Origin: a virus
DNA: 30,954 nt
Virus record (IMG/VR): IMGVR_UViG_3300047678_000806
Location: 1 to 30,954 of that record
Direction: 5' to 3' (one strand)
Of the stretch, positions 4,814 through 24,924 are shown one piece after another. A model generated the notes under the pieces. That model was given only the letters and a program-made list of their open reading frames with translations. It did not search any database and had not been told where the DNA came from. Each line of letters opens with the position of its first letter. Within the stretch, counting starts at the first letter, position 1. The position numbers and the translations under genes are program-made.

Positions 4814-4889
4814 AAGACAAGAAAAAGCAAAATTCGGCAAATCGGATGATGCCCTTGCGCTGATACACTGGATGCGCGAGGCGAGCCGC
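4814..4889 (+). promoter_or_regulatory. Promoter-like repeated element, copy A
   Basis: This stretch aligns without gaps to 24221-24296, with 63 of 76 bases identical. Conserved blocks are an A-rich part (4814-4831), TTCGGCAAATCG (4833-4844) and GCGCGAGGCGAGCCGC (4874-4889). The more variable middle keeps TGATACACT (4861-4869), resembling an extended -10 (TGnTAnAAT); no clear -35 TTGACA is seen. It lies between terL and the head operon. It probably drives late transcription with host or phage-modified RNA polymerase; that is inference. Confidence 0.65.
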
Positions 4890-4931
4890 GGGAAACCATG
4901 CGGCCGACAACCGATTTGCGCCTCGCCTCGC
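4876..4931 (+). promoter_or_regulatory. Structured leader with nested inverted repeats
   Basis: GCGAGGCGAG (4876-4885) pairs perfectly with CTCGCCTCGC (4922-4931). Inside, GCCGC (4885-4889) pairs with GCGGC (4900-4904). A third pair, GCAAATCGG (4837-4845) with CCGATTTGC (4911-4919), interleaves with the first, so all three could not form as simple nested hairpins. If transcription starts just after TACACT, the first two would be in the RNA leader of the head operon. Confidence 0.55.
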
Positions 4932-4952
4932 ACGCAGAGAGCGCGTCGTACC

Positions 4953-4994
4953 CGAGCCCGACCTGGGGAGATCCCGGGCGGGCTCGTCTGTTTT
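4953..4994 (+). terminator. Terminator-like hairpin before the head operon
   Basis: CGAGCCCG (4953-4960) pairs with CGGGCTCG (4979-4986); the 18-base interior can pair further through GGG/CCC. TCTGTTTT (4987-4994) follows directly, as in an intrinsic terminator. The ribosome site CGGAGG (4995-5000) of the next gene comes immediately after. It may stop the terminase transcript or act as an attenuator inside the head-operon leader. Confidence 0.6.
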
Positions 4995-5007: not shown

Positions 5008-5445
5008 ATGGGCGGCGGGGGCGGCGGGACGCTGGGCACCCTGGCACGCGTGGCCACGGCCGTGACGACCTTCGGTCTGTCCGAGGCTCCCGGCGCGGTC
5101 GGGAAGACCGCGCGCGACGCCGCCGGCGTGATGGCGCTGACCAACCCCGCCTCCGCACTCAGCTACGGCACCGCCGTCGCCGCGCGTACCGCGCAGGGAG
5201 TGGCCACTGCTCCGCAGAACGCCGCCAACGCCGCCTCGGAAGCCGCGGCCAAGCAGAACCAGGCGCAGGCCGACCTGCTCAACCAGATCAAGCTGCAGCC
5301 GCAGGTGGTCCAGCCGGACAACTTCCAGGCGACGAAGAACAGGCAGCTCAACAGCCTGCGCATGGGCATCGCGGCCACCATGAAGTACGGCGGCGCGGCG
5401 CCCATCACCGCCGCGCCCACGCTGAAGACGAAGTTGGGGCAATAG
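5008..5445 (+). CDS. Hypothetical virion-module protein, 145 aa
   Basis: Starts at ATG 5008, eight bases after CGGAGG. The N-terminus is MGGGGGG, followed by Ala-rich segments (ARTAQGVATAPQNAANAASE) and a C-terminus NRQLNSLRMGIAATMKYGG, then LKTKLGQ. Podoviruses often have a small protein of this style just before the portal, with Gly-rich start and a short conserved tail. Its role is unknown; a minor head protein is likely from position. First gene after the leader, four bases from the portal start. Confidence 0.75.
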   Translation: MGGGGGGTLGTLARVATAVTTFGLSEAPGAVGKTARDAAGVMALTNPASALSYGTAVAARTAQGVATAPQNAANAASEAAAKQNQAQADLLNQIKLQPQVVQPDNFQATKNRQLNSLRMGIAATMKYGGAAPITAAPTLKTKLGQ

Positions 5446-10231: not shown

Positions 10232-10246
10232 GCCGGACGCAGTAAA

Positions 10247-10283
10247 CCGGGGAGGCGGCCTGACGCCGCGGCCGCCTCCCCGG
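10247..10283 (+). terminator. Hairpin copy 1 (14-bp stem)
   Basis: CCGGGGAGGCGGCC (10247-10260) pairs perfectly with 10270-10283 around the 9-base loop TGACGCCGC. It lies between the cement gene and the repeat gene. No T-run follows, so it is not a standard intrinsic terminator; it may be an RNA-stability or processing element. A 36-base stretch (10245-10280) recurs exactly at 10846-10881. Confidence 0.6.
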
Positions 10284-10305: not shown

Positions 10306-10836
10306 ATGTACAAGATCGTCGCTTTCAACGACTGCTACAACCACCACGGCCACAGCGAGAAGGGCCGCGTCATCGACGCGAGCGAAGCCGAGCTGCGCGC
10401 CAGCGCCAAGGCCCGCAAGTTGCCGGACACCGCCCTGTTCCCCCTCCCGCACTTCCGCTTCGTCAACGAGGACATGAACAAGAAGGCCCAGGACGCCTTG
10501 GCGAAGCCCAAGGAGGCGGCTAAGCCGGAGGCCGAACCCGAGAAGGCCCCCGAAACCGCGCCCGAGACCGAGAAGAAGGGCAAGCCCGGCAAGAAGGCCC
10601 AGGACGCCTTGGCGAAGCCCAAGGAGGCGGCTAAGCCGGAGGCCGAACCCGAGAAGGCCCCCGAAACCGCGCCCGAGACCGAGAAGAAGGGCAAGCCCGG
10701 CAAGAAGGCCCAGGACGCCTTGGCGAAGCCCAAGGAGGCGGCTAAGCCGGAGGCCGAACCCGAGAAGGCCCCCGAAACCGCGCCCGAGACCGAGAAGAAG
10801 GGCAAGCCCGGCAAGAAGGCCCAGGACGCCGACTGA
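10306..10836 (+). CDS. Lys/Glu/Pro-rich repeat protein
   Basis: 176 residues starting at ATG 10306 after AAGGAG. Residues 1-58 form a unique domain (YKIVAFNDCYNHHGHSEKGR, then LFPLPHFRFVNEDMN). Residues 59-169 are three identical 37-residue repeats made nearly only of Lys, Ala, Pro, Glu and Thr, and a stub KKAQDAD ends the protein. The repeats have mixed charge and are surely disordered. It might be a head-packaged or flexible linker protein, by analogy with Lys/Pro/Ala-rich tails of DNA-binding proteins, but the balancing Glu content argues against plain DNA binding. No family is recognised. It is flanked on both sides by the same hairpin. Confidence 0.8.
   Translation: MYKIVAFNDCYNHHGHSEKGRVIDASEAELRASAKARKLPDTALFPLPHFRFVNEDMNKKAQDALAKPKEAAKPEAEPEKAPETAPETEKKGKPGKKAQDALAKPKEAAKPEAEPEKAPETAPETEKKGKPGKKAQDALAKPKEAAKPEAEPEKAPETAPETEKKGKPGKKAQDAD
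10480..10830 (+). repeat. Three identical 111-bp tandem repeats plus 18-bp stub
   Basis: Units start at 10480, 10591 and 10702 and are identical base for base as far as I can read; a partial fourth unit of 18 bases starts at 10813. Each encodes 37 residues in frame. Lack of any silent difference points to recent copying or ongoing recombination. Assembly from short reads could miscount the copies. Confidence 0.95.
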
Positions 10837-10850
10837 CCTGACGCGAACCG

Positions 10851-10881
10851 GGGAGGCGGCCTGACGCCGCGGCCGCCTCCC
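10851..10881 (+). terminator. Hairpin copy 2 (11-bp stem)
   Basis: GGGAGGCGGCC (10851-10861) pairs with GGCCGCCTCCC (10871-10881) around the same 9-base loop TGACGCCGC as copy 1. It lies 15 bases after the repeat-gene stop and 18 before the next start. The stem is three base pairs shorter because the last three bases of the right arm differ. No T-run follows. Confidence 0.6.
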
Positions 10882-24220: not shown

Positions 24221-24296
24221 AAGACAAGAAAAAGCAAACTTCGGCAAATCGCGGGACGCGCTTCGGCTGTTAGAATGAAGGCGCGAGGCGAGCCGC
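24221..24296 (+). promoter_or_regulatory. Promoter-like repeated element, copy B
   Basis: Ungapped partner of 4814-4889. It keeps the A-rich block, TTCGGCAAATCG (24240-24251) and GCGCGAGGCGAGCCGC (24281-24296); the -10-like part is TGTTAGAAT (24268-24276), closer to consensus than in copy A. It starts ten bases after the giant virion protein's stop and precedes the fiber gene. As in copy A, GCCGC (24292-24296) can pair with GCGGC (24309-24313), and here the ribosome site GGAG sits in the loop. Confidence 0.65.
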
Positions 24297-24315
24297 CCAT
24301 CATGGAGAGCGGCCG

Positions 24316-24924
24316 ATGAGCGTTGCGTCCCAACAGTCGAAAGTCATCTACGCCGGTGACGGCATCACGACGCTTTTCTCCATCCCCTTCCCGCTGGCCG
24401 ACATGGTCGCGGCCTCCGACCTGCAGGTCTTCTTGGTGGACAACCTGGGCAACGTGACGCTGTTGACCAGCGGCTACACGCCGAACACCGCGACCATGAA
24501 GGTGACTTACCCGAACGTCGGGTCCCCGCTTCCCGTAGGCTACCAGCTGGTGCTGAACCGCTTGGAGCCCATCACGCAGAACAACACTTACACGGACACG
24601 GGCCCCATGCCCGCGAAGTCCGTGGAGGCCGCGCTGGACAAGCTGACCTTCATCTGTCAGCAGCTCGCGGAGCAGATCGCGCGCGCAGTGCTGGTCCCCA
24701 TCAACACGGTCGCGCAAGGCTCGCCCGTGACGCCCCCGACGGTAGCGCCGGTGGGCCTGGTTCAGTTGAACGGGACCTGGGCGCAGGGCGTCTCTTACGC
24801 GCAGGCCAATCCGACCAGCCAGTTCCTCCTGTTCGTTACGACGGGCGACGAGGCTGGACAGTGGTTCTTCTACACGGGCAACGTGGCGCTGGGCAACCAG
24901 GGCTTCTTGGGGGTGGGCGGATGA
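24316..24924 (+). CDS. Tail fiber N-terminal/adaptor protein (T7 gp17 N-terminus-like)
   Basis: 202 residues from ATG 24316. Typical parts are QSKVIYAGDGITTLFSIPFP, then VFLVDNLGNVTLL, YQLVLNRLEPITQNN and LDKLTFICQQLAEQIARAV. This is the conserved head domain that fixes fibers to the T7-type nozzle. Here it ends after a short C-terminal beta segment (QWFFYTGNVALGNQG), so the receptor-binding part must be on another protein, probably the next gene, whose ATG overlaps its TGA. Frame of the next gene is -1 relative to this one. Confidence 0.88.
   Translation: MSVASQQSKVIYAGDGITTLFSIPFPLADMVAASDLQVFLVDNLGNVTLLTSGYTPNTATMKVTYPNVGSPLPVGYQLVLNRLEPITQNNTYTDTGPMPAKSVEAALDKLTFICQQLAEQIARAVLVPINTVAQGSPVTPPTVAPVGLVQLNGTWAQGVSYAQANPTSQFLLFVTTGDEAGQWFFYTGNVALGNQGFLGVGG

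Follow-up and report, generated by a model that had tools for sequence, protein, structure and literature searches.

We found two matched elements in a phage genome fragment that probably serve as late promoters, with the head copy leading into a leader that would be attenuated by the logic of lambda PR'-tR'. The window (i.e., the whole stretch of DNA analyzed here) is an IMG/VR fragment of 30,954 bp and 67% GC. It encodes a portal (39% identity to BPP-1), a capsid belonging to phrog_212, a terminase, internal virion proteins, a 2254-aa protein, a tail fiber, and a spanin. These proteins place the phage with the BPP-1 and epsilon15 relatives and, judged by them, it is a short-tailed podovirus of the BPP-1/epsilon15 type. 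The record is apparently short of approximately one quarter of the genome, given sister genomes of approximately 40 kb, and the early region is not in it. Positions 1-317, at the record start, hold 27-bp direct repeats in an array (a repeat finder counts 8 copies), and the assembly may have broken at this array. The same virus is also present elsewhere in IMG/VR (L004, 99.98% identical); relatives were obtained with a lineage-specific capsid alignment (n=16, the same virus not counted).

Positions 4814-4889 (copy A) and 24221-24296 (copy B) align without a gap at 63/76 bases with an offset of 19407, as an earlier sequence-only reading had described, and the runner-up 76-mer match anywhere in the window reaches only 36/76. 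A BLAST search of the whole 30,954-bp record returned the second copy with E = 3.8e-18 and no third copy. The mismatches are clustered (P approximately 1.6e-5, for a block picked after the fact), with 12 of 13 in positions 32-60, the stretch with the spacer and the -10, one in the first 31 positions (position 19), and none in the last 16 nt. Conservation is thus strongest on the flanks of the -10-like part, in agreement with the same reading, as is the observation that each copy opens a structural operon: copy A occupies the gap that separates the large terminase gene from the first head gene, ahead of the head and portal genes, and copy B the gap between the 2254-aa gene and the tail-fiber gene. 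The similarity runs past base 76: beyond a loop (10 or 12 nt), both copies have GCGGCCGA (4900-4907 and 24309-24316), whose sequence complements the last bases of the GC-rich block. A coding explanation was rejected, since copy A stops after 11 codons in the shared frame and the mismatches at positions 32, 33, and 34 ignore codons. The closest relative found, L229 (5148 bp; portal 62%, capsid 73%), provides a third copy for comparison, and the features are as follows.

4814..4844, plus strand: copy A upstream block, A-rich plus TTCGGCAAATCG; 30/31 as in copy B, 20/31 as in L229
4861..4869, plus strand: copy A extended -10, TGATACACT; position matched in copy B and L229
4876..4889, plus strand: copy A putative initial transcribed block, GCGAGGCGAGCCGC, predicted 5' arm of the leader hairpin; 14/14 in copy A, copy B, and L229
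4900..4904, plus strand: copy A proximal 3' arm, GCGGC, complementary to GCCGC at 4885-4889; also in copy B, within GCGGCCGA
4914..4932, plus strand: copy A distal 3' arm, ATTTGCGCCTCGCCTCGCA, from folds; 19/19 in L229
4953..4994, plus strand: predicted intrinsic terminator of the copy A leader, a stem-loop at 4953-4986 and then TCTGTTTT; -28.1 kcal/mol
5008..5445, plus strand: gene that opens the head operon, 145 aa, no assigned function; homologue of 46% in L229 and 42% in L268
5449-7224, plus strand: portal gene, after the 145-aa gene and before the protease and then the capsid
24221..24251, plus strand: copy B upstream block, approximately -62 to -32, by comparison with copy A and L229
24268..24276, plus strand: copy B extended -10, TGTTAGAAT; the sole TGnTAnn[A/T]T on the window plus strand
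24283..24296, plus strand: copy B putative initial transcribed block, GCGAGGCGAGCCGC; 14/14 in copy A, copy B, and L229
24309..24313, plus strand: copy B 3' arm, GCGGC; fold -12.0 kcal/mol
24316..24924, plus strand: first gene of the tail-fiber/lysis operon (fiber N-terminal domain); phrog_1640 tail protein, E 9.7e-20

Both copies look like late promoters. They share a layout that consists of an A-rich block from -62 to -32, no -35, an extended -10 (TGnTAnAnT), and the 14-nt transcribed block. Despite the 67% GC of the window, the A-rich blocks rank 1st and 3rd for AT-richness among its 30-mers, and the upstream block of copy A, which contains GCAAA twice, 10 bp apart (4827 and 4837), is a probable activator or UP region. 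The extended -10 is in register in copy A (TGATACACT), copy B (TGTTAGAAT), and L229 (TGTTAAAAT) with 15 nt from the TG to the 14-mer in each, and all three have the TGnTAnnnT that is a feature of sigma-70 type promoters. We infer from this arrangement that transcription starts near 4876 and 24283. We looked for TTGACA at 16-18 bp in both copies and found neither it nor a sequence close to it, which bears out the earlier claim that a standard -35 is missing. Sites for sigma-54, T4 MotA, Mu C, Ogr, and CtrA were absent or not placed alike in the two copies, and the window block is without a palindrome. A lambda CII-like TTGC-N6-TTGC was found and set aside since it lies on the opposite strand. 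Separately, GCAAATCGG in the upstream block (window 4837-4845) recurs inverted as CCGATTTGC at 4911-4919 in the copy A leader.

The earlier reading had counted the GC-rich tail as part of the promoter-like element. Since this tail is downstream of the expected starts (approximately 4876 and 24283), it would be part of the transcript and not promoter DNA, and in the predicted folds it forms the 5' arm of a hairpin in the leader RNA. The window leader runs from this 5' arm through a weak proximal arm, a strong distal arm, and the terminator at 4953-4994 to the start codon at 5008, with a fold z of -2.8 versus shuffles. Within the distal arm, CTCGCCTCGC (4922-4931) pairs with the 5' arm at 10/10 bases, and the alternative folds with the proximal or the distal partner are nearly equal (-28.7 vs -29.6). 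The hairpin at 4953-4994 is the top terminator-like hairpin of the window plus strand; among the 14 pairs of its stem, comparison with L229 revealed three double (compensatory) changes, two single changes, and no broken pair. The hairpin of copy B is weak, a longer stretch there folds no better than shuffles, and a Shine-Dalgarno GGAG (24304-24307) sits in the hairpin loop. Copy B has no leader terminator ahead of its gene and also no distal arm, and Rfam returned no match for the leader.

The L229 comparison concerns the head site, the L229 fragment ending before the tail site. There the spacing between the extended -10 and an identical GCGAGGCGAGCCGC is exactly that of the window, 20/31 bases of the upstream block match both copies in register (shuffle P approximately 1e-4), and 35 and 39 of 75 bases match the two copies over -75 to -1 (shuffle P <= 5e-5). 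The L229 leader folds far beyond shuffles (z -6.8): GCGAGGCGAGCCGC is fully paired with GCGGTTCGCCTCGC and followed by TTTT, and this proximal hairpin is terminator-like by itself. Next comes ATTTGCGCCTCGCCTCGCA, identical at 19/19 bases to window 4914-4932 and an alternative partner for the same 5' arm, and the leader ends in an intrinsic terminator ahead of the start codon. Exact pattern scans of IMG/VR for the element returned the same virus only (99.98% identical). The looser pattern GCGAGGCGAGCCGC-N8,14-GCGG occurs in 38 IMG/VR stretches, of which those from relatives belong to L229/L238 and the same virus (L004); the remaining ones were set aside as chance matches in unrelated contigs. 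By these scans the sequence class of the element is narrow. The element is in register at the L229 head site. Pairing is not universal, as no pair of elements was detectable in G002 or L268/G022.

Epsilon15-type (Uetakevirus) and BPP-1-type (Rauchvirus) phages resemble the window in having repeated promoter-like elements before head and tail-fiber genes, although their signals differ from it. The Epsilon15-type signal is CATATnTGGTT..GGTAATA behind a repressor palindrome. Epsilon15, phiV10, SPN1S, and Tyrion carry the palindrome ATTACCTnnAAGGTAAT (with small variations) and CATATnTGGTT..GGTAATA at head and tail-fiber sites, and TL-2011b has the element at the head site, the one site checked (set L007, L211, L212, L213, and L214; head site in five, tail-fiber site checked in four). 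In the Epsilon15 record, sites for a repressor and for IHF are annotated upstream of gp3 and gp20. The epsilon15-like tail copy begins with a hairpin containing a Shine-Dalgarno sequence. The BPP-1-type signal is GGTRCCCGTR-N17-TAnnnT, which is found in BPP-1 (L005) and eight relatives (L006, L008, L009, L011, and G010-G013) before structural genes in 3-4 copies each, with a one-base variant of GGTRCCCGTR in G010 and G012; most of these sites are without a leader terminator. An unbiased search for 9-mers repeated at a fixed distance from TAnnnT recovered GGTRCCCGTR in 9/9 BPP-1-like genomes and no similar motif in the other genomes. This motif does not occur in the window. It probably marks a late promoter of BPP-1-like phages that has not been described, and it outdoes the window element in support by numbers. 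Our literature search returned no description of a BPP-1 late promoter and no report of the window element.

Eight further phages (L092, L031, L221, L222, L224, L225, L226, and L227), with capsid identity of 53-57%, carry at the head site TTGACAAAATGACA, a mostly extended -10, and then, ahead of the first head gene, a strong terminator that has a T-run. Most have a 5' hairpin whose stem sequence is variable, with the loop CTGATCA in five. A second copy of TTGACAAAATGACA stands before the terminase genes, exact in 4/6 and as a near-copy in 2/6 of the clade records scanned whole. Because the MAFFT alignments of these divergent leaders were of inadequate quality for formal pair counting, the leaders were folded one by one. 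TGACA/TGTCA half-sites occur at the late promoters of this clade, and TGACA direct repeats 8 bp apart occur at the TTGACAAAATGACA promoters (L092 6569, L221 6080, L224 6473, L225 3848, and similar). One L092-type relative, L270/L271 (G017), encodes a reverse transcriptase and an Avd protein and therefore probably has a diversity-generating retroelement (DGR) like BPP-1.

In the reading we favor, host RNA polymerase would use both promoters, and the upstream block would stand in for the absent -35 as the binding site of an activator that the phage makes or recruits, and both operons would thereby switch on together late. The head operon would be nearly silent, held by the leader terminator, and release would come from a polymerase made termination-resistant or from a leader refolded between the proximal and distal partners of its 5' arm. 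The shared leader hairpin would be the best candidate for the site where polymerase modification is loaded or sensed. Since a conserved intrinsic terminator stands between the head copy and the first gene, control is probably exerted at elongation as well as initiation. It is possible, though unlikely, that the 14-nt block and hairpin form a new antitermination/attenuation signal common to the two late transcripts. If so, polymerase from either promoter would be modified via the same 5' RNA, the head leader terminator would be released, and polymerase would cross the long structural operons, which would make the signal the equivalent of HK022 put for late genes, perhaps with an unknown protein partner.

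The late promoters of P2 and Mu lack a -35. P2/P4 and Mu are like the window in having several late promoters per genome with a common upstream site and a joint switch-on. P2 has four late promoters with TGT-N12-ACA, the site of Ogr (PMC3931495), and no other system compared here comes as close to a set of late promoters built on a common site; the Ogr TGT-N12-ACA and Mu C sites are, however, absent from the window, where the transcribed region is conserved too. The lambdoid late promoter PR' is coupled to the terminator tR' and the antiterminator Q (PMC6606751), and Q-type control was also proposed for podovirus YA3 (PMC7326022). The window resembles PR'-tR' in its late promoter and short leader with an intrinsic terminator ahead of late genes, an arrangement found in copy A only, and shares the logic, proposed here, of transcription blocked and later released. 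Unlike PR', it has two promoter copies with one leader element and no TTGACA -35, and the transcribed block GCGAGGCGAGCCGC contains no lambdoid -10-like pause sequence. The lambdoid Q site lies between -35 and -10. In the window element no part is less conserved than the spacer, and a Q binding element cannot be placed because there is no -35. The Pfam Q families PF06530 and PF03589 gave no match in 8-9 relatives, the early region of the window lying outside the record. The G017 early proteins include an integrase, RecE/RecT, HTH proteins, and the DGR reverse transcriptase with Avd, and no antiterminator was among the PHROG families listed (first 25).

HK022 putL and putR are early-transcript RNAs of approximately 70 nt with two stem-loops (PMC9378689). 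They are the closest precedent for a repeated 5' RNA element, in that two transcripts carry one and the same RNA element close to their starts, and this element can in principle act on distant terminators. The window copies share only the 14-nt arm and GCGGCCGA, at late operons; of a put-type pair of stem-loops, the 5' arm and GCGGC are common to both, and copy B has one weak stem. The Caulobacter GTA cluster is controlled by GafY, IHF, and GafZ (PMC11150451), which is similar in combining activation and antitermination at a virion gene cluster promoter, but GafZ has one target promoter, an element between -35 and -10, and a terminator after the first gene. We do not class the window element with the lambda-Q, HK022 put, P2-type, or GafY/GafZ systems. 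As for the suggestion of an undescribed late-promoter class, the kind is already known, but the sequence class and the leader that both copies share seem to be new.

Purely activator-dependent promoters in the style of P2 Ogr or Mu C, regulated at initiation alone, with a hairpin that protects mRNA and a terminator that insulates against terminase read-through, would account for the missing -35, for the upstream block being the best conserved DNA part (30/31 between the copies, 20/31 in L229), and for the tandem GCAAA, 10 bp apart and centered near -42. GGTRCCCGTR in BPP-1-like phages, at a fixed N17 from the -10 in 3-4 copies and mostly without leader terminators, also points this way. We nevertheless consider this explanation unlikely, as a terminator downstream of the promoter would stop that promoter's own transcripts, and the most conserved part is the 14-nt transcribed block (14/14 in three copies), a degree of conservation that initiation alone does not require. 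Control by RNA alone, through a self-contained attenuator or a put-like protein-free RNA whose 5' arm swaps proximal and distal partners, would fit one RNA element opening two transcripts, as putL/putR do in HK022 (PMC9378689), and alternative 3' arms that are kept in the window, with energies of -28.7 vs -29.6, and in L229. This appears improbable, since copy B is missing the distal arm and terminator, the leader has no Rfam match and no known ligand, and the L229 proximal hairpin with TTTT is terminator-like itself.

An operator of a repressor or IHF type, silencing the two late operons in a prophage, would parallel the annotated epsilon15 sites upstream of gp3 and gp20 and the palindrome ATTACCTnnAAGGTAAT repeated in its relatives, as well as the TGACA/TGTCA half-sites at L092-type promoters and the integrase and HTH proteins of G017. 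With no palindrome in the window block, we regard an operator as decidedly improbable. Recent recombinational duplication of the promoter region, in which the similarity would reflect copying and not selection, is suggested by there being two copies only and by their high identity. It is disfavored as very improbable, given that the mismatches are strongly clustered and that the blocks are kept in L229 though the proteins are only approximately 62-73% identical.

BPP-1/epsilon15-type podoviruses are models for capsid structure and diversity-generating retroelements, and their late control appears little described in the literature searched. The comparisons across lineages show that the position is conserved (head genes and, in several lineages, also the tail-fiber gene) while the signal is swapped lineage by lineage; the matching regulators should therefore be searchable and testable with few reporter constructs. 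Elsewhere in the window, identical 36-nt GC-rich hairpins (10245-10280 and 10846-10881) lie on both sides of the gene at 10306-10836, which holds three identical 111-bp tandem repeats.
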